Assembly (NCBI GenBank): GCA_019751755.1 | Contig: JAIENA010000148.1 | Span: 1 to 46,898, forward strand | Source of the DNA: Burkholderiaceae bacterium | GTDB lineage: Bacteria; Pseudomonadota; Gammaproteobacteria; Burkholderiales; Burkholderiaceae_D | Reading direction: 5' to 3' | Length of the DNA stretch: 46,898 bases | In this document: piece by piece, positions 4,949-45,622 of the stretch | How positions within the stretch are numbered: the stretch's first letter is position 1 | Layout: each line of letters opens with the position of its first letter | Program-made: the position numbers and the translations under genes | The notes under the pieces: model-generated | Seen by the model: only the letters and a program-made list of their open reading frames with translations | Told to the model about the DNA's origin: nothing | Database searches by the model: none

Positions 4949-4959
4949 CCCACTGATCC

Positions 4960-6672: not shown

Positions 6673-6687
6673 ACGCTGACTCTCCGA

Positions 6688-8061
6688 TTAACGTTCGCTG
6701 ATGGCGCGCAAGCTGTCCGCGCTGAAAAAGCCGGGCTTGAAGCGCGGGCTGGCCTTGGCGTCCGTCACCCAGGTCATATCCTTGCCGGCGCCCACCGCGT
6801 GCAGGTCGAACACGTAGCGGCCTTCGGCCAGGTTGTATTGGGCAAACGCGGACACGTCGCAGGTGCCGGTTTCATAAACCGGAATCAGGTAGCCTTCGCG
6901 GTGCTTCCACAGCTTGCCCTGCGCGTCATAATCGTCGGCCAGCATCAGGTTCCAGCTGTCCTCATCGATATAGAAGGTGCGCTGCGGCGCCGAATGGCGG
7001 GTGCCGGCCTTGACCGACGCCTGCACCACCCACACGCGGTGCAATTCATAGCGCCGCGCGCTGGCGGCGATGCTGTCGTCCTTCGCCACGTCCTCGAATT
7101 TCGCCTGCGCGTTGTAGGCGCCGAACGAGGCATAGGGCACGTAGATTTCCTTTTTGCCCACCAGCTTCCAGTCGAACCGGTCCAGCGTGCCGTTGAAGAC
7201 AAATGGTTCATCGAGCGTGTACTGGTTTTCCATACCAATCTGCGGCGCGTCGTAGGCATAGGCCGGCATGCGCCGCACGCGGCGCTGGCCCGGGAAGTAA
7301 TAAAACGTCTCGGACGCCGGCTGGTTCAGGAAGAACGTCACAGACAGCGCCTGGCCCGCCAGCGCGGTCGGCGTGGAATAGGCGAAGTAGGTGTAATACT
7401 CGACACCCGGCAGCGCGCTCAGCTTGTTGCTGCCCTTGGCGCCCCACGGGAAGAACATGGTCTGCTCGGAGCCGGCCCGGATCCATTCGCTGCTGCCCTT
7501 GCGCGGCGACACGGCGGTGGTCACCTGCTTGTATTCGATGCCCACGCCACGGTAGCGCATCTTGGCGTTGTACATCGCTTCCAGGCCATTCTGCGGAATC
7601 GGGAACGGCGCACCCGGCACATTGGCCTCGGCCAGGCTCCAGCCATCGGCGCCGACCTTGGCGAAACCGGCGTTCTTCTTCGTGTTGTCCTGTACGAAGT
7701 CCGGCGCGCTGCAATAGCGGTGGCTCGGATAGATTTCCATCTTGTAGCCCTTGACCTGCTTGAACAGCGCCAGCTGGCCGGGCGTCAGGTGCTCCGCGTA
7801 CTTGTCCGCATTGGATGCGTCGATCACCTCGAGCGGCTTGTCATCCTTGTATTTGAAGTAATCCTTGCGGTATTTGCCATGACTCCAGCCGGACGACTGG
7901 ACCGCCTCCGCGCTCCACGCCGGAATGGTTTTTGCCGCGTTGCCGGTCTTTTCGCCGCCCAGCGGCGTCAGGCTGTTGCCCAGATCCTGGACCGAGGCAG
8001 CGCCGGCGGCCCCGGCCAGCACGGCGCATGCGACGCCGATCAGGTTTGCTTGCTTCAACAT
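6688..8061 (-). CDS. DUF1329 family periplasmic/outer-membrane-associated protein
   Basis: A 457-residue secreted protein with a signal peptide (MLKQANLIGVACAVLAGAAGA). Family-typical stretches include LTPLGGEKTGNAAKTIPAW near the N-terminus, GQRRVRRMPAYAYDAPQIG in the middle and YIDEDSWNLMLADDYDAQGK towards the C-terminus. These resemble the outer-membrane-lipoprotein-sorting (LolA/LolB-like) fold suggested for the family: a hydrophobic-cleft carrier. No lipobox is visible. The gene is separated from the aldehyde dehydrogenase by 73 bp containing a strong stem-loop and from DUF1302 by 15 bp. Likely partner of the DUF1302 barrel and RND permease in a transenvelope path. Confidence 0.9.
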   Translation of the reverse strand: MLKQANLIGVACAVLAGAAGAASVQDLGNSLTPLGGEKTGNAAKTIPAWSAEAVQSSGWSHGKYRKDYFKYKDDKPLEVIDASNADKYAEHLTPGQLALFKQVKGYKMEIYPSHRYCSAPDFVQDNTKKNAGFAKVGADGWSLAEANVPGAPFPIPQNGLEAMYNAKMRYRGVGIEYKQVTTAVSPRKGSSEWIRAGSEQTMFFPWGAKGSNKLSALPGVEYYTYFAYSTPTALAGQALSVTFFLNQPASETFYYFPGQRRVRRMPAYAYDAPQIGMENQYTLDEPFVFNGTLDRFDWKLVGKKEIYVPYASFGAYNAQAKFEDVAKDDSIAASARRYELHRVWVVQASVKAGTRHSAPQRTFYIDEDSWNLMLADDYDAQGKLWKHREGYLIPVYETGTCDVSAFAQYNLAEGRYVFDLHAVGAGKDMTWVTDAKASPRFKPGFFSADSLRAISER

Positions 8062-8099
8062 GATGGATTCCCCTTGATGTCTGTCTAGTTATGGTTGAT

Positions 8100-8120
8100 G
8101 GGCGCCATGGGTCGGCGCCC
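8100..8120 (-). other. Intercistronic stem-loop between aldehyde dehydrogenase and DUF1329 genes
   Basis: A perfect 7-bp inverted repeat (GGGCGCC / GGCGCCC) with a 7-base loop sits in the only sizeable gap (73 bp) of this part of the operon. No U-tract follows it on the minus strand, so it is not a canonical terminator. It may act as an RNA-stability or attenuation element separating the enzyme genes from the envelope genes; that is inference. Confidence 0.5.
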
Positions 8121-8134
8121 CGGGTGGCAGGCGC

Positions 8135-9604
8135 TTACAGCACCACCGTGATGACTTTTTCTTCGGTACACGCCTCAATCCCGCTGTAACCGAGTTCGCG
8201 CCCCAGGCCACTGGTTTTCACGCCGCCCCACGGCAGGCGCGCATCGATCGGCGCCCAGCCATTGATGCCGACCGCGCCGGCCTGCACCTTGCCGGCCATG
8301 CGGTGCGCGCGCGCCAGGTCGCGGGTCCAGATGGTCGCGCCCAGGCCATATTTGCTGTCGTTGGCCAGCGCCAGCGCTTCGGCTTCGGTGTCGAACACGA
8401 TCAGCGTGCCGACCGGGCCAAAGATTTCCTCGCGGGCGATGCGCATGCTGTTGCTGGCATTGGCGAACAGGGTTGGGCGGATGAAGCAGCCCTTGCCTTC
8501 CAGCGCACCGCCGGTGACCAGCGTGGCGCCGTCTTCGATGCCGGCGCGGATATAGCGCGCTACGCTGTCGTATTGCGAACGCTTGGCCACCGCGCCCATC
8601 GTCACGCCCTCCTCCAGCGGATCGCCCACCTTGATGCTTTCGGCGGCGCCGCGCAGGCCCTGCAAGAGTTGGTCATAAACGCCGCGCTGCACCAGCAGAC
8701 GGGTGCCCGCCGCGCACACCTGTCCCTGGTTGAAGAACAGGCCCATGGCGCAGCCCTGGATGGCGGCGTCGAGGTCGGCGTCGTCAAACACGATCTGCGG
8801 CGACTTGCCGCCCAACTCCATTGCCACGCGCTTGAACAGCGGACCGGCATGGCGCATGATTTCCGCGCCCACCACCGGGCTGCCGGTGAAGGTGACCTTG
8901 TCCACGCCCGGATGCACGGCCAGCGCCGCGCCGGCCACCGCGCCACGGCCGGTCACCACGTTGATGACACCGGGCGGGAAACCGGCTTCCTGCGCCAGTT
9001 GCGCCAGGTGCAGCGCCGACAGCGGGGTTTCCTCGGCCGGCTTGATGACGATGGTGCAGCCGGTGGCCAGCGCCGGCGCCAGCTTCCAGCAGGTGATCAT
9101 GAACGGCGTGTTCCATGGCACGATCGCGCCGATCACGCCGACCGCTTCGCGGAGGGTGTACGACAGCGTCGGACGGCCGAAATAGCCAGGCGTGGGAATG
9201 GTGCGGCCTTCGATCTTGTCGGCCCAGCCGGCAAAGTGGCGCAGCGTCGACAAGGCGTTCGGCAAGTCCAGCATTTGCGGCTCGATAAACGGACGGCCGA
9301 TGCACAGCGCGTCATAACGGGCGATCAGTTGCGCGTCGCGCTCGACCAGATCGGCCAGTTTCAGGATCAGCGCGCCACGCTCGGGACCGGACAGTTGCGA
9401 CCAGGCGCCGCCGTCGAACTGGGCACGCGCGGCCCGTACCGCCGCATCGATTTCTTCCACGCCGCCGTTCGGCACGCGCGCGATGACTTCCTCGCGGGCG
9501 GGATTGACCACGTCGATGTGGCCGTCGCCGCCCTCGACCCAGGCACCGCCGATATGGTGGCGGTAGGTTTGCTGCAAGTTGAACTGTTCTGCAAGGTTGC
9601 TCAT
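8135..9604 (-). CDS. NAD(P)-dependent aldehyde dehydrogenase
   Basis: A 489-residue cytosolic aldehyde dehydrogenase. Catalytic features are all present: PWNTP with Asn165, the cofactor-binding Lys188 in VIKPAEETPLSA, the general base Glu263 in MELGGKSPQ, and the nucleophile Cys297 in FNQGQVCAAG. Length and motif order match the betaine/phenylacetaldehyde-type superfamily. It sits 44 bp downstream... in transcription order directly after the two cytochromes c and before DUF1329. The context suggests it oxidises the aldehyde produced when the TTQ amine dehydrogenase deaminates its substrate, giving the carboxylic acid (for example a phenylacetate-type acid). Exact substrate is not readable. 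Start ATG has the expected N-terminus (MSNLAEQF) and no better alternative. Confidence 0.95.
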   Translation of the reverse strand: MSNLAEQFNLQQTYRHHIGGAWVEGGDGHIDVVNPAREEVIARVPNGGVEEIDAAVRAARAQFDGGAWSQLSGPERGALILKLADLVERDAQLIARYDALCIGRPFIEPQMLDLPNALSTLRHFAGWADKIEGRTIPTPGYFGRPTLSYTLREAVGVIGAIVPWNTPFMITCWKLAPALATGCTIVIKPAEETPLSALHLAQLAQEAGFPPGVINVVTGRGAVAGAALAVHPGVDKVTFTGSPVVGAEIMRHAGPLFKRVAMELGGKSPQIVFDDADLDAAIQGCAMGLFFNQGQVCAAGTRLLVQRGVYDQLLQGLRGAAESIKVGDPLEEGVTMGAVAKRSQYDSVARYIRAGIEDGATLVTGGALEGKGCFIRPTLFANASNSMRIAREEIFGPVGTLIVFDTEAEALALANDSKYGLGATIWTRDLARAHRMAGKVQAGAVGINGWAPIDARLPWGGVKTSGLGRELGYSGIEACTEEKVITVVL

Positions 9605-9648
9605 ATTGGTCTCCAGTGGTTATTTGATTGCTTGTCTTGTGGCTTGTT

Positions 9649-10188
9649 TTACTTGGGAAAACCTGCCGCGATCGCGGCGCGCGCACCGGCCACGTCGAGC
9701 GGCGGCGCGGCGCGCCAGCGCGCCACCTCGTCCGCCGTATAGGGTTGAAAACCGGCCGGCAAGGTCGGCGCCGAGAATTCGTGCAAGGCCCAGTTGGTCA
9801 GCGCGGCCAGTTCCGCATCCGTGATGCCGGCATTGCGCGCGCCGGGCGCCTGCACCAGGAAGGCACGGCCGGCCAGGGTTTGCTGGAAATGGCCGAGCGT
9901 GCCGCGCATGCTGGGAATGCCGAATTCCGGCGAACCGCTGCCGTCAACCTGATGGCATCCGGAGCAGTACAAACGGAACAGGGTGCGGGCGCGCAACGGG
10001 GTGATGGCCTGCCCGTCCGCACCCGGGCGGGCCTGCGGCGCGGTGCCGGACGGATGCAGTGGCAGCGCCATGGCGTAGCGCCCCTGCACCGGCGCCGCAC
10101 TCTGCGCCGTCGCGGTGGCGCCGTGCAGCAACAGGGCGAGTGCCGGCACCAGCAGCAGCGCCAGCTTGCATGCGGGCGTGGCGCTCAT
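9649..10188 (-). CDS. Monohaem cytochrome c, periplasmic
   Basis: About 179 residues from the ATG at 10188, chosen because it overlaps the stop of the preceding cytochrome gene (ATGA) and starts a signal peptide (MSATPACKLALLLVPALAL). One haem-binding CSGCH lies at about residues 75-79, with possible axial Met in GIPSMRG and further aromatic and Leu-rich helices typical of class I cytochromes. A C-terminal segment with the YTADEVARWR motif resembles one in the neighbouring cytochrome. It probably accepts electrons from the amine dehydrogenase, directly or through the neighbouring cytochrome. It has a single haem site, so it is not a MauG-type dihaem enzyme. Confidence 0.88.
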   Translation of the reverse strand: MSATPACKLALLLVPALALLLHGATATAQSAAPVQGRYAMALPLHPSGTAPQARPGADGQAITPLRARTLFRLYCSGCHQVDGSGSPEFGIPSMRGTLGHFQQTLAGRAFLVQAPGARNAGITDAELAALTNWALHEFSAPTLPAGFQPYTADEVARWRAAPPLDVAGARAAIAAGFPK

Positions 10189-10625
10189 TTTGCCAGCGCC
10201 TGCTTGCGGACCGCGCGCCACTGCGCCACCGACAGCGGCTTGGCGCGCAGCGTCGCCACCTCGTCCGCCGTGGCCGCTGGCGCGTCCTTGTGGCCGGCCA
10301 GGTCGTGCACCAGGTAATTGGCGACCGCCGCGATTTCGCCATCGGTCAGGCGGTTCTGGGTCGGCATTACGCCGTTGAACGTGCCTTCATCGGTGCTGAT
10401 CGGACCATGCATGCCGGCCAGCAGCACGCCGGGCGCATAGCCCGGCACCCGCGACAGCTTGCCCCAGTGGCTGCCCTTGAGCGGCGGCGCGACGCCGGCC
10501 GCGCCCTGGCCCTGGTCCTGGTGGCACATGGCGCAGCTCGATTTGTAAATCTCGGCGCCATTGACTTGCTGCGCCTGGGCGGTGGCGCCGGCCAGCAGCG
10601 TGGCCAGCAGTATCAGTGTGCGCAT
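10185..10625 (-). CDS. Monohaem cytochrome c, periplasmic (amine dehydrogenase electron acceptor candidate)
   Basis: About 146 residues from the ATG at 10625, which follows the amine dehydrogenase small-subunit stop by two bases and begins a short signal peptide (MRTLILLATLLAGATAQA). One haem site, CAMCH, lies in IYKSSCAMCHQDQGQGAAG, followed by VAPPLKGSHW and a Met-containing loop (NGVMPTQNRLTDGEIAAVA) that is a good axial-ligand region, so this is a standard class I cytochrome c. From memory of the published Alcaligenes faecalis aau cluster, a small monohaem cytochrome follows the aauBEDA genes there too. I infer that it takes electrons from the reduced TTQ cofactor towards the respiratory chain. 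Confidence 0.9.
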   Translation of the reverse strand: MRTLILLATLLAGATAQAQQVNGAEIYKSSCAMCHQDQGQGAAGVAPPLKGSHWGKLSRVPGYAPGVLLAGMHGPISTDEGTFNGVMPTQNRLTDGEIAAVANYLVHDLAGHKDAPAATADEVATLRAKPLSVAQWRAVRKQALAK

Positions 10626-10627
10626 GC

Positions 10628-11164
10628 TCAGGCCTCCGCCAGTCCGACCACGGACGCCGTGGTGCAATGGAACATCGAGTTGTCGTTGCTCATGCACCAG
10701 TTGATGTCGTTGTGCAGGCCCATCGCATAGCCGGGACGCTCGCGCAAATTGGTGTTGCACATGCACTTGCCGCACGCGGTCTTGCCGCAGCAATCGTTGT
10801 AGCTGACCAGGTAGTCCTTGCCATCGTTCGGGTTGTGACAGGTGCCGACCCAGCTGACCTTGGACGCATTGGTGCCGGGCGGACATTGCGTCAGCGAGCC
10901 GCCGCAGCATGAGCACAGGAAACCGTCAATGGCGCAGTAGCGCCAGTATTCGCACGCGGTCGGGTCGCCGGCGGCGGCCTTGGGATCGGCCTTGCCGCCA
11001 CCGTGCGCCGCATGCGCCGTGCTACGGTCGAACGGCAGCACCGGCAAGATGAAGGCGGCGCCCACCAGCGCGCGGCTGATGCGGTTGAGCGCGTGGCGGC
11101 GCGACACGGTTTGCGCCAGCTTGCGGCTTTGCCGCTCGGCGAATTGATCGAACCAGTTAAACAT
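10628..11164 (-). CDS. aauA: Amine dehydrogenase small (beta) subunit carrying TTQ
   Basis: A 178-residue protein of the methylamine/aromatic-amine dehydrogenase light-chain family, which carries the tryptophan tryptophylquinone cofactor. The N-terminus has a long twin-Arg-like leader (SRRHALNRIS followed by a hydrophobic stretch at about 32-44). The mature part is Cys-rich (CEYWRYCAIDGFLCSCCGG, CPPGT, NDCCGK, CGKCMCN), the expected disulfide network. The two TTQ-forming tryptophans are Trp105 (SKVSWVGTC) and Trp156 (NDINWCMSN). They are 51 apart, as in methylamine dehydrogenase Trp57/Trp108, and Asp124 (SYNDCC) lies 19 after the first, matching the catalytic Asp76. Symbol follows the aau gene order (B-E-D-A plus cytochrome, no mauG); mauA is the alternative, and substrate class cannot be proven from sequence. 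Confidence 0.93.
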   Translation of the reverse strand: MFNWFDQFAERQSRKLAQTVSRRHALNRISRALVGAAFILPVLPFDRSTAHAAHGGGKADPKAAAGDPTACEYWRYCAIDGFLCSCCGGSLTQCPPGTNASKVSWVGTCHNPNDGKDYLVSYNDCCGKTACGKCMCNTNLRERPGYAMGLHNDINWCMSNDNSMFHCTTASVVGLAEA

Positions 11165-11176
11165 TGTCGCTACTCC

Positions 11177-11818
11177 TTAATGTTGATGGCCAGGGGCGCC
11201 ATGGGCATGGCCATGGGCGTGCTGGTGTTGCTGTTCCGGCGCCAGGAACTCCTGCACCGACGCCACGCCCAGTTCTTGCGCGGTCAGCAGGCTTTCCAGC
11301 TGCTCGCGCGAATTGATCAAGCCTTTGGCGCTGACATTGCCCTGCGCATCGATCAGCACCGCGTATGGCAGGCGCGACACGCGGTAGGCCATGCCCAGCG
11401 GCGCCGACAGCACATACGGGAAAGCGGTCAGGCCATACTCGCGGCGGAACGCCTGGTGTTCGACGGTGTCGCCGTCGCTGGCCAGCACCATGCGCAGCCA
11501 GCCGCTTTCGGCGCGCTGCAGCGACTTCAGGACCGGCAACAGTTTCTTGCACACCGGGCAGGTCGGCGACAGGAAGAACAGCAAGGTGCTGGCGCCCGCA
11601 GCGCCCGGCAGTTGCAGGCTGCCGTTGTCGAGCGTGCGCAGCGCCATGGCCGGTGCGGCGTCGCCGACCTTGGGCCCGGAATCGGTCACCAGCGCCCCCA
11701 TCGGCGCCACCCGTTCAAACAGCACGCCGACCTGGCGCGCCAGCGCCATCACCATGGCCACCAGCGCCAGCAACACGCACCACACCAATCCGTTCGATAC
11801 CAGCAAAGCGGTTTCCAT
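11177..11818 (-). CDS. aauD: MauD-type thioredoxin-like maturation protein
   Basis: A 213-residue membrane-anchored thiol-disulfide protein needed, in the mau and aau systems, for folding of the disulfide-rich small subunit. Seen: one N-terminal membrane anchor (about 7-28), then a thioredoxin fold with the redox motif CPVC in FFLSPTCPVCKKLLPVLK (about 94-110). The start ATG has an AAGGAG site seven bases upstream. Unusually, the C-terminus ends in a His-rich tail (QQHQHAHGHAHGAPGHQH, seven His) that could bind metal. The gene lies 36 bp after MauE and 12 bp before the small-subunit gene. A MauD homologue is established by context and CPVC; the tail's function is unknown. Confidence 0.92.
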   Translation of the reverse strand: METALLVSNGLVWCVLLALVAMVMALARQVGVLFERVAPMGALVTDSGPKVGDAAPAMALRTLDNGSLQLPGAAGASTLLFFLSPTCPVCKKLLPVLKSLQRAESGWLRMVLASDGDTVEHQAFRREYGLTAFPYVLSAPLGMAYRVSRLPYAVLIDAQGNVSAKGLINSREQLESLLTAQELGVASVQEFLAPEQQHQHAHGHAHGAPGHQH

Positions 11819-11854
11819 TTGTTTTCTCCTTCAAGTTTGATAACGTATTTTTTT

Positions 11855-12397
11855 TCAATCGAGCACGCGCTGTGGCGGCAGGTTGGCCAGCACCTGGTTC
11901 AGCGCGAGGTACATGCCCATCAACACCAGCGCGCCGGCGTTGATGCTGAGCCAGTCGATCCAGCCCGGCTCACGGGACAGTTCCCATGCCACCGGCAGCG
12001 CCAGTGGCAGCGCCGCCAGCGCCAGCAAGGCATTGCGCGCCACCAGGGCCCAGCGGATCACTTGCGTGCCGTCTGCCCCGCCGCAACCGCAATCGATGGT
12101 GTCGCGGCCCCGCTGCAGGTTGCAGGCCATGGCGCCGGCATAGGCCAACAGCAGCACGGCCGACAGCAGCGCGGCAACCGGACGGCTGATGGCATCGAGC
12201 CAGCCCAGCGCGGCCAGGGCTTCCAGCAGCGGCACCGCGACGGCGGCCGGCGTGGCCAGCGCGCGCGGCAACACGCGGTAATCGATCAGCTGTTGCTGGA
12301 ACAGGCGCCACGCCAGCAGCTTGTGGGTGGCGGCGACGCCAAACAGCAGGGCAAAGAACGCGCCCGGCAACAACATCAGAACCGGATCGGTGCTCAT
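11855..12397 (-). CDS. aauE: MauE-type membrane maturation protein
   Basis: A 180-residue integral membrane protein of the MauE/DoxX-like family. Four to five hydrophobic helices are visible (about 5-25, 45-65, 72-90, 118-137, 148-170). The hallmark cytoplasmic/periplasmic loop LQRGRDTIDCGCGGADG with its CGCGG cysteines is present. MauE works with MauD in small-subunit export and disulfide formation. Its start overlaps the large-subunit stop by ATGA. Gene order large subunit, MauE, MauD, small subunit is identical to mauBEDA and aauBEDA. Confidence 0.93.
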   Translation of the reverse strand: MSTDPVLMLLPGAFFALLFGVAATHKLLAWRLFQQQLIDYRVLPRALATPAAVAVPLLEALAALGWLDAISRPVAALLSAVLLLAYAGAMACNLQRGRDTIDCGCGGADGTQVIRWALVARNALLALAALPLALPVAWELSREPGWIDWLSINAGALVLMGMYLALNQVLANLPPQRVLD

Positions 12398-13575
12398 GGC
12401 GCATCCACCTGCAGCGGCGCGTCGCCCACCGGCGCCGACACATAGACTTCACGCATCGATGGCAGCGCGTACGCCACCACCTGGTTGGTGACACCGTTCA
12501 GCGCATACAGGTAGCCCGGCGCGCTGTCGCCGACCTGCAGCGCGATCGCGTTTTTCGACTTGGTGCGCGCCAGGCGCTTGCCGCTGGCCAGGTCCACGGT
12601 CCAGATTTCCTGCGCGGGGAACTTGTGGCTGCCCTCCTGGCCTTTCGGATGCATGCCGACCAGCAGGCGGTTGCGTTCCCGGTCCAGCGCAAACGCCTGG
12701 TAGCCGCCCGGGCGCCAGCCCTGCTTGCGGTCGGCCTCTGTCACGAACGGGACGGTGTGTTCCAGCACGGGTTCGGCGCCGCGCAAGTCGGCCTTGTGCA
12801 GGCGGCCGTGGAACGTCACGAAGTAATAGCGTCCCGCATGCGACGGTGACGGGACGTACACCGGATCGTCACCGGCGTCGAAAAACTTGGGCGACACGGC
12901 GCGCTGCGCCACCTTGCCCGTGGCATCGAGTGTCACGGTGGCGAACCTGCCGTCACCGCACAGCATGGAAATGCGCAGCGCCTCGGTTTGCGACGGATAG
13001 ATGCCATAACAGCCGGGGCTCGGCACTTCGGCCAGCACGGTCTTTTGCTGCAAGTCGACCACCGTGACGGAGGTCGCCGGCGTGGCGTTTTGTACATACA
13101 GGTAGCGCCCGTCAAAGGACGTTTGCAGCAGGTTATGCAGGAACGCGGCTTGTGCCTTCTTGTTCGGGATCGCCACATCGCCCACCATGCGCAACGTGTC
13201 CGCGTCATAGATCTCGACCATGTCGTGGCGCTCGCCGTGCGTATGGCGCGTCATATACGTCGCCGCCACATACAGCCGCTTGCCATCCGGCGACGTGGTG
13301 AACGCCCCCGCATAACCGGCGTCAACCACCCCGGCAAATTTGCCGTTGCGGCCATCGAGCACATGGACCCGGGCGTCGGACAGGTGGCCGATCGAAAAAT
13401 CGGACACGTACAGGCGCGGCATGGCCTCTGGCAGCGCCACGCCATCCTTCAGGCGTTCCGGTTCGAATTCCGCGGCGTGCACGCCGCAGGACAGCAGCGC
13501 CAGCGTGGCCAGTGCGTTTGCCAATGGATTTACCGCACTGCAAGTTTGAAATATCGACATCATGCTCTTTCCCAT
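12394..13575 (-). CDS. aauB: Amine dehydrogenase large (alpha) subunit
   Basis: A 393-residue secreted seven-bladed propeller that holds the TTQ subunit and shapes the substrate channel. Seen: a signal peptide ending near SCGVHAAEF; family motifs RLYVSDFSIGHLSDARVHVL, TTSPDGKRLYVAATYMTRHT with the ERHDMVEIYD region, SPGCYGIYP, YFVTFHGRLHKADL, WRPGGYQAFALD and AQEIWTVDLASGKRLART. The ATG at 13575 has little upstream Shine-Dalgarno; the ATG at 13563 or 13560 is preceded by GGGAAAGAGC and may be the true start, with no effect on the mature protein. This is the first gene of the operon and faces a divergent AraC regulator. Confidence 0.93.
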   Translation of the reverse strand: MGKSMMSIFQTCSAVNPLANALATLALLSCGVHAAEFEPERLKDGVALPEAMPRLYVSDFSIGHLSDARVHVLDGRNGKFAGVVDAGYAGAFTTSPDGKRLYVAATYMTRHTHGERHDMVEIYDADTLRMVGDVAIPNKKAQAAFLHNLLQTSFDGRYLYVQNATPATSVTVVDLQQKTVLAEVPSPGCYGIYPSQTEALRISMLCGDGRFATVTLDATGKVAQRAVSPKFFDAGDDPVYVPSPSHAGRYYFVTFHGRLHKADLRGAEPVLEHTVPFVTEADRKQGWRPGGYQAFALDRERNRLLVGMHPKGQEGSHKFPAQEIWTVDLASGKRLARTKSKNAIALQVGDSAPGYLYALNGVTNQVVAYALPSMREVYVSAPVGDAPLQVDAP

Positions 13576-27677: not shown

Positions 27678-30600
27678 ATGCAAGCCGCGCGTATTGCCGT
27701 GGCGGCGCGTGTGTTTAATGTCCGCAGGAGCGCATCCGGTTTGTCCCGTCCCGCCATTCACTTCAGTTCCATCGCCGCCCCGGCACGCCGCATGGCGGCC
27801 GCCTTGTTGCTGGCCATTCCCGCCGCCGTGCTGGCGGCGTCCGGCGCGCCGCGCTGGGACGCCCACGCCACCCCGCTGTTTTCCCACATCGGCATGGAAC
27901 AAGGCTTGCCCCATCCGGTCGCCGTGGTCATGGCCCAGGATGCCGACGGCTACCTGTGGATCGGCACCCAGCAGGGACTGGCGCGCTGGGACGGCTACCG
28001 CATGCGCAATTTCCTGTTCGATGCCGCCGATTCCGGATCGCTGCCGGGCGATTTGATCCAGGCCTTGCACGTCGACCAAAAGGGCCGCCTGTGGGTCGGC
28101 ACCGCCAATGGCGGCCTGGCCCTGTATGACAAGGTCCACGAGCGTTTCCGGCGCTTTGGCGTCGGCCCGAACGGCTTGCGGCACGCCGCTGTCAATGCGA
28201 TCGCCAGCGATGCCGATGGCGGCATCTGGGTCGGCACGGCCGGCGGACTCGATTACCTGCCACCCGGCCTGGACGCCGTGCGGCACATCGAGCGCGCGCC
28301 GGGCCAGCCGGACAACCAGGTGCGCTCGCTGTTGCGCGACCGCGCCGGCAACCTGTGGATCGGTTCCGTCACCGGGCTCGAATTGCGCGCCGCGCGAGGC
28401 GGCGCGATCCAGGCCGTCGCCATCAAGGGCCCGGATGACGCGCGCTGGAGCGACGCCGTGCTGTCACTGGCCGAGGAACGCGATGGCCGCATCCTGTTCG
28501 GCACCATGAAAAGTGGCCTGGGCCGTGTCACGGCCCAGGGTGCGGCCGCCAGCGGCCAGGTGCTGGCCGTGGCCGGTGTCAGCGACGCCCAGGCGCATAT
28601 GGTGCTGGGCCTGGCGGAAGTCGGGGCCGGCCGCTGGTGGGCCGCCACCTATGGCGGCGGCGTGATTGAATACGACGCCGCCGGCGGCCGCGGACGCCGC
28701 ATCCAGCACAAGGCGGCGGTGGGTACCAGCCTGGGGGCCGACCGCACCGCCTATGTCTTGCGCGACCGCAGCGGCCTGGTCTGGGTGGCCAATGAGCGCA
28801 GCGTCGACACCTACAATCCGCAGGCCGAAGGGATCCGCAATATCCATGGCGCCGAAGGCATCGCCGAGACCGGCGTGTCGGCCCTGATGAAAGATGGCCT
28901 CGGCACCATGTGGGTGGCGCTGGCCGACCAGGGCATCGACCAGTATTTGCCCGATGGGCGCCGCATTGCGGCGCTGCGTCCTGACCCGACGCGGCCAGAC
29001 GATGCGCTGCCGGCGCGGTTTATTCTGGCGCTGGCGCCCGCGCCGGATCACGAGGCATGGATCGGCACCCAAATCGGCCTGTACCGCAGCAGCGCCCATG
29101 GCCGCAAGGTCAAGCGCATCAAGCTGCCGGAGAGCATGCCCTACCCCCGCATCAGCACCATGCTGGCGCAAGGCGATGTGCTGTGGCTGGGCACCTTCGA
29201 CGGCCTGCTGCGCTATGACACGGCCAGCGGTGCACTGCGCTCCCATGTTCAGGGCACCGCCCCGGGCGGCTTGTCCGACAACCGCATCCACGCCATCGCC
29301 GACGATGGCATGGGCGGTTTGTGGATCGGCACGCGCAATGGCTTGAACCACCTGCTGGCGGACGGCACGGTGGAGCAGATTCATGCCCAGCCCACCGTGG
29401 CGGGCGCACTGCGCTACCCGCTGGTGACGTCCCTGGTGCGGGACCGCCAAGACCGGCTGTGGGTCGGCACCAATGGCGGTGGCATCTTTATCCTGCATCA
29501 TCGCGACAAAAAGGGCGCGCCGGTGTTCCAGCAGATCGACACCACACACGGCTTGCCGTATGGTGCCATCACTGGCATGCAACTCGATACCAGTGGCGCC
29601 GTGTGGGCCGCCACCGCCAACGGCCTGGCCACCATCGACCCGGCCACGCTGCAGGTGCGCGCGTTCGGGCGCCAGGACGGCCTGGCGTTCGGCACCTATT
29701 TTGGCGGCGCGGCCGGACTGACGCCCGAAGGCGACGTCGCCTTTGGCGCCACCGCCGGACTGGCCGTGCTGCAGCCGCAGCAACTCCAGCCCTGGAGCTA
29801 CGCACCGCCGCTGGTGATTGGCGCGGTGCGGGTCGATGGCCAGCCGATGGTCGCCGGCGAACTGATGGCGCGGCTGGCCGGCCCGCAGCCGGTCCTGACG
29901 CTGCCGCCGGGCGCCAAGAGCCTGGAAGTGCAACTGGCGGCGCTGGATTTCTCCGCCCCCCACCTGAACCGCTATGCGGCGCGACTCGATGGTGTGGACC
30001 GCGACTGGGTCTCCACCGACGCCACCGGCCGCCTGGCCATCTACCGCAACCTGGCGCCCGGCACTTATCGGCTGGACCTGCGCGGCAGCAACCGCAGCGG
30101 GACCTGGAATACGCCGCCGCTGTCACTGCAAGTGATCGTGCAGCCGCAATGGTTCCAGACCTGGTGGGCCAAACTGCTGTTTGGGCTGACCGGCGTCGTT
30201 GCCGTCTGGGGCCTGTATCGCCGGCGCATGGGCTATCTGCTGCGCACCAAAGCCCAGCTCGAAGCCCGCATCTACGCGCGCACCCAGCACCTGGAAAAGC
30301 TCAACGCCATCGTCCGCTCCATCAACGAGCAAGTCGACTTCGACGCCCTGCTGATCACCATGCTGCGCGAAGCGACCGTCATCGAAGGCGTCGAAATCGC
30401 CTATGCGCTGGTGTATGACGGCGGCGCGGACCACTTTGCGGTGCGCGCCACCTGGGCCCGCAGCGGTGTGGCGCCGGAGCTGGCGCCGATGGCGGCGGCG
30501 CTGGCCGCGGCGCGCTTTGCACCCGAGGGCAGCGCGATTTTCGACGATATTCACATCGTGCGCGCCCCTGCCGCCGACGGCGTGGCGGCCCAGTTGGCCC

Positions 30601-33600
30601 TGTGCATCCGGGTGGAAGGCGCGGTGCAGGGTTACCTGGTGTTCGCCAACCTCGGCCACAGTCTGGCGTTCGACCAAAGCGACCAGGATTTGTTGAAAGG
30701 CTTGAAGGAACACGTGGTCTCGGCCTTCCAGAAGGCCCATGCGCTGCGCGTAATCGACCGCGCCCGCGCTGACGCCGAATCGGCCTCGCGCGCCAAGAGT
30801 GAATTCCTGGCCAATATGAGCCATGAAATCCGCACGCCGATGAATGCGCTGATCGGGCTGTCGCGGCTGACGCTGCGCACCGACCTGACAGCCAAGCAGC
30901 GCGATTACCTGGGCAAGATCCTGTGGTCCGGTGAGAACCTGCTGGGCATCATCAACGATATCCTGGACTTTTCCAAGATCGAGGCGCGCCGCCTGGAATT
31001 GGAACACGTGTCGTTCCCGCTCGATGACTTGCTGGGCAATCTGGCCGACGTCATCGTACAAAAGACCGAGGAAAAAGGCGTTGAAGTGGTGTTCCGGGTG
31101 GCCTCGGGCGTACCACGCCTGCTGCTGGGCGACCCGCTGCGCCTCGGCCAAGTCCTGCTGAACCTGGCGGGCAATGCCGCCAAATTCACCGAACAGGGTG
31201 AAATCGTGCTGTCGGTCGACGTGCTGCAACGCGGCGCCACCACCGTTACGCTGCGCTTTGCCGTGCGCGACACCGGCATTGGCATGACCAAACAGCAGAT
31301 CAGCGGCCTGTTCCAGTCGTTCTCGCAGGCCGACAGCTCGATCACGCGTAAATATGGCGGCACCGGGCTGGGCCTGGCGATTTCGCGCCAATTGGTCGAA
31401 TTGATGGGCGGCACTATCGAGGTCGACAGCCAGCCGGGCGTCGGCAGCTGCTTCACCTTCGACATCGAGCTGGGCGTCGCGCCCGCCGATGCGGCCGAAC
31501 CGGCGGCCAATCCCGCCCTGGATCGCCACCGCGTGCTGGTGGTCGATGACAGCGAAGTGGCGCGCGCGGTCCTGTGCGACATGCTCGAATCGTTCGGCAT
31601 CGGCGATTGCCATGGCGCGGCGTCCGGCCCGTCTGCGCTGGACTTGCTGCTGGCGGCGGAAGTGGCCGGCAAGCCTTACGACCTGGTGCTGATGGACTGG
31701 CGCATGCCGGAATGGGATGGCCTGGAAACGGCGCGCCGCATCCGCAGCGACGCCCGCATCCAGACCACGCCGGCGATCCTGATGGTCAGCGCCCACGCGC
31801 GCGAAGATGTGTTGAACCGTATCGACAACGCGGGACTGGACGGCTTCCTGATCAAGCCGGTGGTGCCGTCGCTGCTGTATAACAGCATCCGCGATATCCT
31901 GCAGCCGGCGCACGGCGCCAGCGCGACACCGGCACCGCGCGGTCAGCGGCCGCGCCAGCCCGACCTGTCGCGCCTGGCCGGCGCCCGCGTGCTGCTGGTG
32001 GAAGACAATGCGATCAACCGCGACGTGGCGCTCGACTTCCTGGGCGACGCGCCGGTGGTGGTCGACGTGGCGTTGGACGGCATGCAGGCGGTCGAAATGG
32101 TGCAGCAAGGTGACTATGACCTGGTGTTGATGGACGTGCAAATGCCCGTCATGGACGGCTTGACGGCGACCCGCACCATCCGCGCGCTGGGGCCATACGC
32201 GCATTTGCCGATCATCGCCATGACCGCCTATGCGCTCAAGAGCGACCAGGAGGCCAGCATTGCCGCCGGCATGAACGAACATTTGACCAAGCCGATCGAT
32301 CCGTTCGCGCTGTATGGCGTCTTGTTGCGCTGGATCGCCGCGCGTCCGGATCGCGCGCCGGCCGGCGACGCCGGCGGGACGCAGGTCGCGCCATCGGACG
32401 CGCGATCAGACGCGCCATGGAGCGGCGCAGCCGATGGCGCCGAGGCGCCCCAGGCGCCGCTGCCGGCGCCCTTGCCCGCGATTCCCGGCATCGACTGGCA
32501 GGTGGCGCTGGAATGTGTCGGCCAGCGCCACGCGCTGCTACACAAGGTGCTGGCCAGCTTCGTGCAGAATTATGGCGGCGCGGGACACACGCCGCTGCTC
32601 GACCATGATGCCGCGCCAGAACTCTTGCAGCGCTATGTGCACAGTTTAAAATCGGCCGCCGCCACGCTGGGCGCGCAAGCCGTGACGCAAATGGCCGGCG
32701 CGCTCGAGATTGCGCTGCAGCAGGACCGGGGCGCCGATGCGCAGGCGCTGCGCGCACCGCTGGCCGCCGCCCTGGCGTCGCTCTCGGCATCGATCGAGGC
32801 AGCCTTTGGCTTGCCGGCGGAGCCGGCCATGCGCACGGCCGTCGACAACAGCATGGCGCAGCCTGGCGCCCCTGCCGGCGCCGACGCGGAGCCGAACAGT
32901 ACGCCCGACCGGCAATCGGTGTTGATCGTCGACGACCAGGTCATCAACCTCGAAGTGCTGTCGATGCTGCTCGAAGACCAATACGATGTGACCACCTCCG
33001 GCGATGGCGCCGAGGCGCTGGCGTGGGCGGCCGAGCACCAGCCCGACCTGATCCTGCTGGACGTCATGATGGAAGGAATCAATGGCCACGAGGTGCTGCG
33101 CCGCTTGAAGGAAGACGCCACCACCAGCCACATCCCCGTGATGTTCATTACCGGCCTGGACAGCCGGGACGATGAGGCGCGCGGCCTGGAACTGGGCGCC
33201 TCCGACTATATCTCCAAGCCCTTCAGTGCGGCGGTGGTGCGGGCCCGCGTGGCGCTGCACCTGCAGCTGGCGCGCCAGCGCCGCCAGCTCGAGGCGCTGG
33301 CGCATATTGATGGCTTGACCGGCTTGCCGAACCGGCGCCGCTTCGATGACCACTATGCGAAGGAATGGCAGCGTGCGCAGCGCAACGGCTCGCCGTTGTC
33401 GCTGCTGCTGCTCGACGTCGACTGCTTCAAGCAATACAACGACCACTATGGCCATGCGATGGGCGACCAGGTGCTGCGCACGCTGGGCCGCGTGCTGCGC
33501 AACAGTGCGCGCCGTCCGGCCGACCTGGCGGCGCGCTACGGCGGCGAGGAATTCGTGCTGATACTGCCGGAAACCGATGGCGCGGCCGCGCTCGATATCG

Positions 33601-33848
33601 CGCAGCGGCTGTGTGCCGATGTGGCGGCGCTGGCCATCCCGCACCTGCACTCGGACTGCGCACCGTGCATCACGGTCAGCGTGGGCGGTGCCACGGCGTT
33701 CCCGCCGGGCAGCGAGTCGCGCGCCGAATTGCTGGAGGCGGCCGACCAGCACCTGTACCGCGCCAAAGCCGAAGGGCGCAATCGCACCGTATGCCGCACG
33801 GCCCACCATGGCGCCGGCAAAAAGTTCCTGGAAGCGCTGAAAGGCTGA
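27678..33848 (+). CDS. Giant hybrid sensor kinase with three receivers, HPt and diguanylate cyclase output
   Basis: A 2056-residue one-protein phosphorelay. Order: signal peptide ([20 protein letters not shown]); about 14 two-component propeller repeats ([41 protein letters not shown] and others) to about residue 735; Y_Y_Y domain (about 755-820); membrane segment (about 829-849); GAF-like region (880-1010); HisKA with His1049 (SHEIRTPMN); HATPase ([15 protein letters not shown]); receiver 1 with Asp1340; receiver 2 with Asp1486; HPt with His1655 (YVHSLKSA); receiver 3 with Asp1795; GGDEF domain with intact GGEEF at 1955-1959 and the [16 protein letters not shown] metal site. The ATG at 27678 lacks a ribosome site; a TTG at 27741 after AGGAG is an alternative start. 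It senses a periplasmic ligand and should make c-di-GMP. Confidence 0.93.
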
Positions 33849-33911
33849 TCTTGGGATACTCCGTAGTTACCACCCGTTGTTCAACCCTGTTTTTGAAAGA
33901 AGGAAGACGTA

Positions 33912-34166
33912 ATGGCAAATTTCAATCCTGGCGATCTCGATACCCTGCTCGACAAACTGTCCTCCGATGACGCGTTCCGCGAGCAAATGCTGGGTAACCC
34001 GGCCCAGGCATTGGCCGGCATCGGCCTCAATATCGACCCCGCCCAGATCCCGGCCATCCGCACGCTGCCGTCGAAAGATGCGCTGGCGGCAGACCGCGCC
34101 ACCATCCAGGCCAAGCTCGATAGCGCCGCCGGCGCGCTGCCATTCTTCCTGAGCGGTACGCTGTAA
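33912..34166 (+). CDS. NHLP-type RiPP precursor peptide
   Basis: An 84-residue small protein with a strong AAGGAAG ribosome site. The N-terminal part LLDKLSSDDAFREQMLGNPA and QALAGIGLNIDP matches the nitrile-hydratase-like leader (NHLP) pattern: Leu-Asp repeats, SDDAFR, NPxxALAxxG. Family memory: this is the group named putative modified peptide or NHLP-related RiPP peptide. The segment IRTLPSKDALAADRA links to the C-terminal core candidate LDSAAGALPFFLSGTL. There is no Cys, His or Trp, so lanthionine or thiazole chemistry is not expected; Ser/Thr and a Phe-Phe pair are present. It lies 63 bp after the hybrid kinase, same strand, and converges on a SagB-like dehydrogenase. I am fairly sure of the leader type, less of the modification. 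Confidence 0.8.
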   Translation: MANFNPGDLDTLLDKLSSDDAFREQMLGNPAQALAGIGLNIDPAQIPAIRTLPSKDALAADRATIQAKLDSAAGALPFFLSGTL

Positions 34167-34200
34167 TGGCCACGGCGCGTGGCCAGCACGCTGGTCACGC
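34167..34200. terminator. Two overlapping hairpins between the convergent RiPP genes
   Basis: Immediately after the precursor stop there is a perfect 8-bp stem TGGCCACG-GCG-CGTGGCCA (34167-34185). An alternative stem, GCGTGGCCAGC with GCTGGTCACGC (34177-34200, one G-U/mismatch), overlaps it and reaches the stop of the dehydrogenase gene. Neither is followed by a run of T, so termination is not certain; the position between two convergent genes is typical for a shared terminator. Confidence 0.5.
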
Positions 34201-35364
34201 GCCGCTGCGCAACTCCACATAATCACCGGCGCCCGCCGGCCCGCAGCCACAGACAGCGACCACCACATCGGCCAACGGGTCGAGGCCAAGCGCCTGCTCG
34301 AGCTCCACCTCATTGATCGCGGCAGTCACAAAACCACCCATCCCGGCTTCCGTGGCCAGCAGATAAAACGTTTGCGACAAGTGTCCCGCGTCCAGCAGCA
34401 GCGCGCGGTGCGCCTTGGCGTGGTTACGGTATTTCCAGAAATTGCGCACCACCCGCGCCGCCACGATCACCATGAACGGCGCGTCGGCAAACCATTGCTG
34501 GTCCGCCACCGCCACCTGCGCCAGCCGGTGCGCCTGCCCGGCCGTCAGCGCCTGCACCGGCTCGAGCTGGTGATCGACCGGATGGTAGTGGTACAGCCCA
34601 GGCGCGATGCCGTCGATGCGCTGCGCCAGCACATACGCGGCGCACGGATGCAGGCCGCCGGCGGACGGACTGGTTTTTTTCAGGACATAGGCGTCCGGCG
34701 CCATCATGCGCTGGTCCTGCGCGCCAAAGGTGCGTTGCAGCAGGCGCGCCGCCAGCGCCAGCGGCACCTGCGCCGTGGTATCAAAATTGCGCCCCGTATA
34801 ACGCCGCAGCAGCACCGCATCGAGCGCGTCGGCGGCCGGCGCGGGCAGCGCGATGGCGGTGTCGGCAGCGCCGCGCGCCACCACTGGCGGTGGCGGCGGA
34901 CCGTACACTTTCACCAGTTCGTCAAAGGTGGGGAACTGCATGCCCGATTCGCTCTGCATGCCACGCCAGCGGCTGAACATATGCGCCACGGCCGACAGCG
35001 GCCGCCAGTGCTGCGCGCGCAGGGTATCGTCACGCTGGCGCACATGGGCCAGCGGCGCCGCCAATGGCGGCTCGCCGGCCGGCGCGTCGGCCACCAGCAC
35101 GCCCGCTTGCAGCAGGTCCGCCACCAGCTCTGCGCCATGCTGTTCTTCCAGCACGGCGCGCGGCTGCCACACGGTTTGCCCGATCCGGCCCAGCGCCGCC
35201 ACCTGCTCGTCGGTCAAGTCCACTTCCCGGTCCAGGTGCGGCGCCAACCCGACCCAGCGCAGCGATGCGCTCAGTGCACTGCCACCGGAAAACATCGATG
35301 ACAAATCCAGTCCCAGCGTTTCCCTGGGTTCCATCAACAACACAGCACAGCGCCTGATCTGCAT
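34195..35364 (-). CDS. SagB-type flavin dehydrogenase (putative peptide maturation dehydrogenase)
   Basis: About 389 residues from the ATG at 35364, preceded by GGAG six bases upstream; upstream in-frame codons lack a site. The C-terminal half is the nitroreductase-like SagB/ThcOx fold: LLRRYTGRNFDTTAQVP (about 186-202), the signature TSPSAGGLHPCAAYVLA (about 231-247), GLYHYHPVDHQLEPV, and LLLDAGHLSQTFYLLATEAG near the C-terminus. The N-terminal about 150 residues (RWVGLAPHLDREVDLTDEQ, LVADLLQAGVLVADA) look like a winged-helix or recognition-type domain. Family memory: putative peptide maturation dehydrogenases are paired with NHLP-type precursors. FMN-dependent oxidation of the precursor is inferred. 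It converges on the precursor, 28 bp apart; an IS21 element lies 150 bp upstream of its start. Confidence 0.82.
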   Translation of the reverse strand: MQIRRCAVLLMEPRETLGLDLSSMFSGGSALSASLRWVGLAPHLDREVDLTDEQVAALGRIGQTVWQPRAVLEEQHGAELVADLLQAGVLVADAPAGEPPLAAPLAHVRQRDDTLRAQHWRPLSAVAHMFSRWRGMQSESGMQFPTFDELVKVYGPPPPPVVARGAADTAIALPAPAADALDAVLLRRYTGRNFDTTAQVPLALAARLLQRTFGAQDQRMMAPDAYVLKKTSPSAGGLHPCAAYVLAQRIDGIAPGLYHYHPVDHQLEPVQALTAGQAHRLAQVAVADQQWFADAPFMVIVAARVVRNFWKYRNHAKAHRALLLDAGHLSQTFYLLATEAGMGGFVTAAINEVELEQALGLDPLADVVVAVCGCGPAGAGDYVELRSGA

Positions 35365-35514
35365 GGAGAGCTCCGGTAATGAAAAATGCCGGCGCATCTT
35401 ACCATCGGGGATGGTCTTGACGATATCCGTACTGCCACCGTAATTGGAAAGGAGAGCCGGGCCGGGTCGCGGTAGCATGGCTGTCTGTCATCGGCGCTTT
35501 TCTTGCAACAAGCG

Positions 35515-35617: not shown

Positions 35618-37126
35618 GTGTTTCACATGGACATCATTTACGAAATCCGCCGGCGCCATCTGGTCCAGAAGCAGACGATTTCCGCCATCGCCAGGGAGAT
35701 GGGAATCTCGCGGCCAACGGTACGCCGGCATCTGAAGACGGTAGAGGAACCTCGCTATGCACGGGTGCCACCGGTCTCGCCCAAGCTGGGGAAATTCGAG
35801 GCACAGCTGACGCAGTGGCTGGAACTGGAGGCAAAGTTGCCGAGGCCGCGCCGCCGTTCTGCCCATCGTCTCTACGAGGGCTTGCAGGAGCTGGGCTACG
35901 GCGGTGCTTACGATAGCGTTCAACGGTTTGTAAAACGCTGGAAGGCCAGCCACCATGGCCCCAAACTGACGGAAGCATTTATCCCGCTGGAGTTCGCGCT
36001 AGGTGATGCCTGCCAATTCGACTGGAGCCACGAGCAGGTCGAGTTGGCTGGCGTGCTGCAAACGATCAAGGTGGCCCATTTCCGGTTGACCTACAGCCGC
36101 CAGATGTTCGTCGTCGCGTACCCGCGCGAAACCCAGGAGATGGTGCTGGAGGCGCACAACCGGGCTTTCGCCTTCTTTGGCGGTGTGCCGGCCCGACTCA
36201 TCTACGACAACCTCAAGACCGTCGTCGACGCCATCTTCAGCGGCAAGGAGCGCAAATTTAATCGCCGCTTCCTGTGCCTGGCCAATCACTACCTGTTTGA
36301 GCCGGTCGCCTGCACGCCGGCCTCGGGCTGGGAGAAAGGTCAGGTCGAGAATCAGGTCGGCAATGTGCGCGAGTGGCTGTTCACGCCGCTGGCCCGCTTC
36401 GCATCCTTCGCCGAACTCAATGACTGGCTGGCACAGCGCTGCCGGGAGTTGGCGCAACGTCTGCACCCAACGCAAAGCGAGCGCACCATTGCCGCCTGCT
36501 TTGCCGACGAACAGCCGCTGCTGCGGCCAGTCACGGCCACGTTCGATGGCTACGTCGAGGATATGATGCGCGTCTCGTCGACCTGCCTGGTGCGGGTCGA
36601 CCGCAACCGCTACAGCGTTCCCGCCAGCGCCGCCGGCCAGGCCGTATCGGTGCGCAGAACGGCCGATCACGTCCACGTCGTCGCCGACGGCGAGCTGATC
36701 GCCGCGCACCCCCGTCGCTATGGCCGCGACCAGTTGATCTGTGATCCCTGGCACTACCTGCCGGTGCTTGAAAAGAAACCGGGCGCGCTGCGCAATGGCG
36801 CCCCCTTCATCGCATGGGAGTTGCCCAAGCCGATACAACTGGTGCGCGACCGGATTCTCAAGCAGCCCAAGGGCGACCGCGCTTTCGTCGAATTGCTGAT
36901 GCTCGCTGGCGAGGCTGGCCTTGATGCCCTGACGGTGGCCTGCGAACTGGCATTGGAGTGCGGCATCGTCAGCGCCCCCGTCGTGATGAACGAATTGCGC
37001 CGGCTCATCGCGCCCCATCTGCCGGCAGCGGCCATCGCCGTGCCCGATGGTATCGCACTGACGATGGAGCCACTGGCCAATTGCCAGCGTTATGACTACC
37101 TGCTGGGATCGACCAATGTCCATTGA
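35618..37126 (+). CDS. istA: IS21-family transposase IstA
   Basis: About 502 residues (an ATG at 35627 with GGAG eight bases upstream gives 499; the GTG at 35618 is also preceded by GGAGG). N-terminal helix-turn-helix: [20 protein letters not shown]. The DDE integrase core is seen in [14 protein letters not shown] (first Asp), [12 protein letters not shown] (second Asp) and [14 protein letters not shown] (Glu). The C-terminal region [15 protein letters not shown] is typical for IS21 transposases. It is full length and looks functional; it overlaps istB by 11 bp. Confidence 0.95.
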
Positions 37127-37883
37127 CCTATTGAATCAACTGAAGGCCCTGCATCTCTATGGCATGGCCACCGCCTGGAATGAACTGCAGGCCGAAAAGC
37201 CCAAACAAGCCCACCGGCCGGAACTCTGGCTCGAACGCATGCTCGCCGCCGAGCAAACCGACCGGCAACTCAAGAGCCTGCGCTACCAGCTCAAATCGGC
37301 CCGCTTCCCCATCCACCGCGACTTGCTCGGCATCGACTGGAACGAGACGCCGCTCGCGCAAGCGCTGCTGGAACAACTGGCTACGGCGGCATTTATGGAA
37401 ACGGCGCACAACCTGATTCTGGTCGGCGGCACCGGCACGGGGAAAACGCACTTGGCCACGGCAATCGGTGTGGCCGCCATCCGTCAATCCAAGCGCGTGC
37501 GCTTCTTCAATGCCGTCGATCTGGTGAATCTGCTAGAGCGAGAGAAGGCGCTCGGCAAGGTCGGCAACCTGGCCAAGCAGCTGTGCTTGGTGGACGCCGT
37601 CATTCTCGATGAATTGGGCTATTTGCCGTTTCCGCCATCGAGTGGCGCCCTGTTGTTTCACTTGGTCAGCCAGTTATACGAGAAGACGTCCCTGATCATC
37701 ACCACCAATCTGTCGTTTGGCGAGTGGGTACAGGTCTTTGGCGACGCCAAGATGACAACGGCCTTGCTAGACCGCGTCACGCATCATTGCGACATCCTGG
37801 AGACCGGCAACGACTCCTACCGATTCAAGCAGCGTAAAGGCCGCGCTCAGCGGCCCTCAAAAGTGGAAAATATTGGACGCTGA
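37116..37883 (+). CDS. istB: IS21-family ATPase helper IstB
   Basis: About 255 residues from the ATG at 37116 (overlapping istA by 11 bp). It is an AAA+ ATPase related to DnaA/DnaC that selects the target DNA for IstA. Walker A is [15 protein letters not shown], Walker B is [15 protein letters not shown], and sensor I follows in [17 protein letters not shown]. Starts with [20 protein letters not shown], the usual IstB N-terminus. Complete; the right end of the element lies 30 bp further. Confidence 0.95.
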
Positions 37884-38516: not shown

Positions 38517-45372
<6,856 letters not shown>

Positions 45373-45622
45373 ATCGCTCGTCTCCTTGTTGTGATGTGAC
45401 AACGCTACCATATCAATTCGAAATATCTTATCGAAGAACGCTGCCGCGTGCCACGTCCGGTGCAATTGCTCAAAACGATGATTTATTTGAATATATTCAA
45501 GGATTTGGCCTTATTAGGCATTGCTGCTATGCCAAAATTCCCGACTGTTATATGAAATCAATATGGTAACGTGCAAACAAATATCGGTAAGCTGGCGCTC
45601 ATCAACCTCCCTTGAGCCTCCT
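45373..45622. promoter_or_regulatory. AT-rich divergent promoter region of the glycan locus
   Basis: 250 bp, clearly AT-rich against the neighbourhood, between the DUF2264 gene and the divergent uronyl hydrolase. It contains a perfect 14-bp palindrome TTGAATATATTCAA at 45487-45500 and the octamer TACCATAT in opposite orientations at 45406-45413 and 45561-45568, near each start. This arrangement fits a shared regulator of both transcripts. No convincing promoter hexamers are assigned. Confidence 0.5.

Follow-up and report, generated by a model that had tools for sequence, protein, structure and literature searches.

What does a SagB-like flavin dehydrogenase do to a small RiPP-type precursor when no other modification gene accompanies the two, and what is the product for? 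The question arises from the first-pass annotation of a 46,898-nucleotide stretch of a Burkholderiaceae bacterium (contig JAIENA010000148.1 of assembly GCA_019751755.1, hereafter the window), which described positions 33912 to 35364 as a minimal and undescribed locus with an unknown modification. Comparison with related genomes reveals a conserved cassette that exchanges its partner and output domains and keeps an invariant residue in the precursor tail. We tentatively read it as a three-gene peptide-signalling cassette in which a tail carrying dehydrophenylalanine would feed a sensor kinase, an interpretation that we place slightly below an even chance.

Layout of the locus

The precursor gene (33912-34166, + strand) lies 63 bp downstream of the ORF of a giant hybrid sensor kinase on the same strand (27678-33848, 2056 aa) and is separated by 28 bp from the dehydrogenase ORF on the other strand. 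Read from its first ATG, the dehydrogenase spans 35478-34195 (- strand); its relatives start near the ATG at 35364, which yields a protein of 389 aa (34195-35364). The nearest relative among the best 80 of 95 loci is that of Pseudoduganella rivuli (81%), and the host, whose draft assembly totals 6.9 Mb over 520 contigs, is taken to be a member of the Oxalobacteraceae from this sequence relationship. DNA homology to P. rivuli is limited to 27776-35377, which covers the kinase, the precursor and the dehydrogenase and then stops close to the ATG at 35364.

An IS21-type istA/istB pair (35618-37883) is located directly upstream of the dehydrogenase start and may separate this gene from its former promoter region. 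No promoter-like site was found between 33600 and 35700, and the same region contains 2 terminator-like sites for 1.7 expected. Elsewhere the window carries sugar-use genes (GH35 and GH2 beta-galactosidases and a DUF2264 protein, 38517-45465) as well as genes for an MMPL transporter, DUF1302 and DUF1329 proteins, an aldehyde dehydrogenase, a cytochrome c and a methylamine dehydrogenase heavy-chain-like protein (2573-13575). In agreement with the first-pass annotation, the 25 window ORFs scanned with Pfam include no YcaO protein, C39 protease or peptide exporter.

A conserved precursor and dehydrogenase pair

The 84-aa precursor has an NHLP-like leader, contains SSDDAFREQMLGNPAQALAGIG, ends in SAAGALPFFLSGTL and is devoid of Cys. 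It belongs to TIGR04509 (72 bits for a cut-off of 34, E 3e-20) and to the Os1348 family NF038399 (44.4 bits for a cut-off of 40). No signal peptide was seen in it. A search for a solved homologue returned only chance-level PDB matches, among them 6lk7 ('nitrile hydratase, alpha chain', 85 aa; E 0.53), which we take to be Os1348.

The dehydrogenase carries the PSAGGLHP and RRYTGRNF motifs reported initially and belongs to TIGR04511 (SagB_rel_DH_2; 508 bits for a cut-off of 240). This model matches all 36 aligned dehydrogenases, the window protein included, and a W-K-Y-R motif is invariant among them (3 of 38 rows with stops were left out of the alignment, as was L127). The closest solved relatives by sequence are a putative nitroreductase, CyaGox, BmdC and McbC. 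The WKY residues align with CyaGox, and K-Y is presumably the catalytic pair. The N-terminal region, where the PqqD-like winged helix of a leader-binding (RRE) domain would lie, is conserved and gives no PqqD match in Pfam at E 1.

The named families of precursor, dehydrogenase and cyclase mentioned for such loci in the first-pass annotation do exist, as TIGR04509, TIGR04511 and TIGR04510. What is already known consists of these NCBI names, one of which implies a cyclase partner. The literature search returned no description of TIGR04509 or TIGR04511 under their names, the one use of the wording referring to SagB in general. The label "undescribed" thus fails for the families, which are named, and stands, within the literature searched, for papers describing them under those names.

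Precursors and dehydrogenases above cut-off occur in the identical 37 of 392 family genomes (the host genome included). A precursor is found within 2.7 kb of 43 of the 44 dehydrogenase genes, always on the opposite strand and either convergent (26 cases) or divergent (17 cases); the remaining gene (G222) is at a contig end and the G222 precursor starts another contig. Likewise, 78 of the 80 named loci (the best 80 of 95 confirmed loci) include a precursor, always on the opposite strand, the other two being L126 and the contig-edge locus L130. Since these loci are largely orthologous, the counts for the pair and those given below for the sensor are not independent. The association between precursor and dehydrogenase is far above chance and, together with the TIGR04509 assignment, upholds the pairing of precursor and SagB-like enzyme first proposed.

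A propeller sensor kinase as third partner

The description of the locus as minimal does not hold. The pair and the adjacent kinase form, with near certainty, one three-gene unit. According to Pfam, the kinase is composed of a Reg_prop propeller, Y_Y_Y, HisKA, HATPase, three receiver domains, Hpt and GGDEF, with a weak GAF-like region that falls below the cut-off. The sensor half (propeller and Y_Y_Y, 27858-30140, + strand) is the constant part of the locus; the diguanylate cyclase (GGDEF) domain occupies 33300-33785 (+ strand). The propeller of such sensors is expected outside the cytoplasm. A hydropathy scan finds no hydrophobic segment in L141 and, for the window kinase and L098, only an N-terminal one, so that a periplasmic position of the propeller is predicted from the family.

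A large kinase gene was recovered in 42 of 45 stretches by clustering of neighbouring ORFs, a cluster that joins on kinase domains and therefore also includes a different kinase (that of contig C128, see below). The propeller itself is more specific: in 16 chosen genomes it gives 19 matches of at least 597 bits, of which 17 fall at precursor loci. The match that follows scores 490 bits, and the five genomes chosen for absence of the dehydrogenase give no match above 491 bits. The two strong matches away from a precursor are L114 (2587-7635) and L115 (5281-10371), where a type A sensor kinase is kept amid the gene clusters of type A loci; tblastn detected neither precursor nor dehydrogenase at these two sites.

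Among the 50 named Oxalobacteraceae loci (from the best 80 of 95), 44 have a propeller of at least 575 bits. Four of the 6 exceptions (L130, L156, L157 and L163) are no more than about 1.3 kb away from a contig end, L157 retaining a weak match of 52 bits. At L126 the dehydrogenase lacks a precursor and the kinase part lacks a propeller, and the D. lactea locus (L160/L106) has the pair with no sensor beside it. In the family search a propeller is present within the fetched stretch at 39 of 44 loci and in 12 of the 13 groups defined by their flanking genes, some groups having a single member whose flanks resemble those of no other locus. The five loci lacking it are L078, L088 and L108 (contig edges), L087 (propeller just beyond the stretch) and L106.

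In a propeller tree of 54 rows (the window and loci with a propeller match above 300 bits, L124 being left out as a copy of L125), 49 sensors are separated from 5 other propeller kinases with a support of 100/100, at a split where long branches are flagged. The 49 comprise the precursor loci, the two sites without the pair (L114, L115) and one orphan-precursor site. The P. namucuonensis sequence (L141) falls inside this clade although its propeller is joined to GGDEF with no kinase, indicating that the sensor half is retained and the output half varies.

Type B loci (for example L097, 6558-8702) show in addition a protein of about 716 aa encoded tail-to-tail with the precursor, whose cluster is found in 12 loci. 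By eye we take it to include NHL-repeat-like and peptidase-like stretches.

Conservation of the precursor tail

The window tail GALPFFLSGTL (34131-34163, + strand), the predicted modification segment, contains the motif F-x-L-S-G. The 131 rows compared collapse to 94 non-redundant sequences, 57 from Oxalobacteraceae and 37 others. The Oxalobacteraceae consensus is [P]F[FL]LSG, with Phe in 57/57, Leu in 56/57, Gly in 54/57, Ser in 51/57 and Pro in 48/57 sequences; the hexamer is among the most conserved parts of these 57 precursors. The invariant Phe corresponds to Phe78 of the window precursor and the nearly invariant Leu to Leu80. Outside Oxalobacteraceae the tails differ (NPHxFEAG, VIFNFEAG, PIQLNV, FLVE) and the place of the Phe is often taken by His, Ile or Pro (as in NPHxFEAG and PIQLNV). 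Tail type follows partner type only loosely, as Streptomyces tails are similar to the one found in Lysobacter sp. Root690 (L182).

Among 16 chosen type A precursors, purifying selection is stronger on the 12-codon tail than on the leader (pN/pS 0.26 versus 0.58). In 11 chosen type B precursors purifying selection on the tail is not stronger (0.59 versus 0.49); the hexamer PFLLSG is identical in all 11.

A second precursor of the host genome, on contig C128 (L113, 3641-3895), has the near-identical tail DSAAGAIPFFLSGKL. No dehydrogenase gene accompanies it within this 4.2-kb contig, and one dehydrogenase may serve both precursors. Proximity of this orphan to a propeller sensor was considered and rejected, the large gene there encoding a different kinase (which by eye we take to be MASE1/CHASE-like); the remainder of the contig gave no propeller match. 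A propeller kinase does precede the corresponding orphan precursor of the relative G360 (L116). From the orphan precursor to the contig end (L113, 3880-4161), short palindrome-like units are repeated (GGGGTCAGGCGTGCATTC...).

Predicted dehydrogenation of the tail

The dehydrogenase very probably acts on the precursor. It would bind the folded leader of the 84-aa protein and remove two hydrogens from the C-terminal F-x-L-S-G segment. By analogy with the enzymes cited below, we give a Calpha-Cbeta desaturation of the F-x-L segment about an even chance. In the likeliest product the invariant Phe would carry the double bond and so become dehydrophenylalanine (-2 Da), the Leu two residues further being the alternative site; YcaO, Cys and azole would all be unnecessary for such a modification.

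The prediction of dehydro-Phe (or dehydro-Leu) follows two published systems. According to the available part of PMC12636437, the nitroreductase domain of PflD, which is YcaO-free, converts the Phe of ...AAIFD... to Z-dehydroPhe on an NHLP precursor, its homologue PosD being inactive in E. coli. The nitroreductase-like AlbAB dehydrogenates cyclo(Phe-Leu), as reported in the accessible text of PMC11055893. Alignment of the window tail with the PosA and PflA tails is no better than that of shuffled sequences (337 and 127 of 500 as good), so the dehydro-Phe site is an analogy. In view of this alignment, the prediction draws on the family of the leader, the class of the enzyme and the invariance of the Phe. 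The PflD result helps to narrow down the modification that the first-pass annotation had left unknown.

Other partners in other orders

A TIGR04510-type cyclase is located beside the pair in 24 of the 26 Lysobacterales-type loci (Lysobacterales and related MAGs, from the best 80 of 95 loci); in the other two, L203 and L204, the sequence stops close to the dehydrogenase. Of the same 26 loci, 22 have a cNMP domain. Three of these cyclases score 1145, 706 and 842 bits against the NCBIfam model (cut-off 400) and display a hydrophobic segment between the cyclase and TPR parts in a simple hydropathy scan (223-241 in L186). Both cyclase neighbours that were scanned combine cNMP_binding and GGDEF domains. 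Among 178 genomes of one family, 111 have the cyclase and 107 the dehydrogenase, all 107 being included in the 111 (Fisher p 1e-44, uncorrected for kinship), and a class-wide draw found the cyclase in 2 of 274 genomes. No TIGR04510 match over cut-off exists in the host genome or in the 392 family genomes, which give sub-cut-off matches only. The search for a third partner elsewhere in the genome, advised initially, thus yielded no cyclase; the partner is the sensor kinase adjoining the pair.

Against the PDB, the cNMP domain matches 5h5o best, presumably the XC_0249 domain. The structure of that domain is named as 4KG1 in the part of PMC3770947 available, where Xanthomonas campestris XC_0250 (886 aa, cyclase at 32-191, TPRs at 413-625) makes cGMP and XC_0249, a cNMP-GGDEF protein linked to it, answers cGMP with c-di-GMP. 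We infer that XC_0250 is a TIGR04510 cyclase.

The actinobacterial loci (4 of 4, from the best 80 of 95) have neither cyclase nor propeller. Histidine kinases of the ordinary kind and LuxR-type regulators are found at a Kribbella locus. In Kribbella antibiotica (L192, 8133-10021) five precursor-like genes in a row are followed by one dehydrogenase.

Possible function of the modified peptide

The modified tail, either free or attached to the precursor, would be the input of the adjacent propeller sensor kinase, which would pass it on to a phosphorelay and, by way of its GGDEF domain, to c-di-GMP in the window strain. In Lysobacterales, a similar peptide and dehydrogenase pair would feed the class III cyclase with TPR repeats and the cNMP-GGDEF protein. 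Gene association, a constant sensor with differing outputs and a parallel partner in another order all point to the modified peptide as sensor input, a role that we regard as plausible, if not quite an even bet. Such peptides may serve as signals rather than antibiotics. In a broader and more doubtful proposal, second-messenger sensors would have a ribosomal dehydroamino-acid peptide as their dedicated ligand, the pair being a portable input module for receptors unrelated to one another (propeller kinases, propeller-GGDEF proteins and TPR-cyclases) and providing the missing input of the XC_0250-type cGMP/c-di-GMP pathway.

The best surviving alternative, in our view unlikely, is that the peptide is an exported antimicrobial RiPP and that the adjacent sensor only times its production. 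Sensor kinases are indeed common beside peptide antibiotic clusters, and the host genome has three C39-peptidase matches, all on other contigs. Moreover, loss of Os1348, a member of a related precursor family, lowers the antibiotic activity of Pseudomonas sp. Os17 according to the accessible part of PMC7726476. However, the scanned window ORFs include no exporter or DNA-binding response regulator beside the pair, the tail hexamer is highly conserved, unlike that of arms-race peptides, and the partners seen in Lysobacterales are enzymes of second-messenger metabolism rather than regulators of transcription.

Less probable still is an uncleaved 84-aa protein that, once modified, reports the intracellular redox or flavin state by binding a cytoplasmic part of the sensor. 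The constant part of the sensor is the propeller, expected outside the cytoplasm in this family, which speaks against such a reporter. The reporter would agree with the weak, below-cut-off GAF-like region of the sensor, with the lack of a recognised protease gene beside the pair, with a topology analysis that gives no placement of the tail outside the cell, and with Os1348, which was found in cell lysates and whose crystal structure suggests a homodimer (PMC7726476, part of the text).

That the genes travel together by descent only, as neighbours without common function, is very improbable. The orthology of many loci and the persistence of sensor genes at the two sites without the pair are compatible with it, but the three partners are kept in both gene orders and in 12 of the 13 flanking groups, the homologous block stops at the cassette boundary and an unrelated signalling partner substitutes in another order. 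Finally, a classical azole route relying on a cyclodehydratase from elsewhere in the genome can practically be dismissed: the single YcaO-domain protein (734 aa) is on another contig and its first part looks OsmC-like, a type that is not known to form azoles; the tail lacks Cys, and 6 of 57 sequences carry another residue in place of its Ser.

Were the modified peptide indeed the sensor input, it would join the few modified-peptide signals known in Gram-negative bacteria. The association makes the link from peptide to second messenger directly testable through the 84-aa gene or the enzyme that goes with it. The chemistry of YcaO-free dehydrogenases becomes testable too, since the SagB-like enzyme stands alone and its candidate substrate residue is clear. 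The input of the xanthomonad cGMP-to-c-di-GMP pathway is not named in the available text of PMC3770947. Searches of openly licensed papers, which are weak evidence on this point, yielded neither the propeller-kinase version, nor a constant sensor with differing outputs, nor a link between the peptide pair and the XC_0250-type pathway.

Comparison with known systems

The window precursor and dehydrogenase pass the curated cut-offs of their TIGR04509 and TIGR04511 families and stand side by side across loci, as in the TIGR04509/TIGR04510/TIGR04511 system. They differ from it by the absence of the cyclase, in whose place the window has a propeller hybrid kinase with GGDEF.

The Lysobacterales loci resemble XC_0250/XC_0249 in that a cNMP-GGDEF protein adjoins a cyclase-TPR protein whose size and layout are similar, whereas the window has an unrelated sensor. 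XC_0251 and XC_0252 go unnamed in the main text of PMC3770947.

CyaGox, McbC and BmdC are among the closest solved homologues of the window dehydrogenase by sequence. They act in azole formation; no azoline-forming enzyme is found beside the window dehydrogenase and the locus contains no YcaO cyclodehydratase, the hallmark of azole (TOMM/LAP) clusters.

The pfl and pos clusters of Pseudomonas (Os1348 being PosA) share with the window an NHLP precursor of the Os1348 family, a YcaO-free SagB-type nitroreductase and, in the portions of PMC12636437 and PMC7726476 available, the lack of a cluster protease. Their nitroreductase is fused to MNIO and accompanied by HEXXH and GNAT enzymes and transporters, and their tail is of the form ...IFD-Qn-ARMD. 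A tail with a Gln run and ARMD, and HEXXH or MNIO partners, were not found in the window ORFs scanned with Pfam. The window locus is distinguished from these clusters by its lone enzyme, its PFFLSGTL tail and its sensor kinase.
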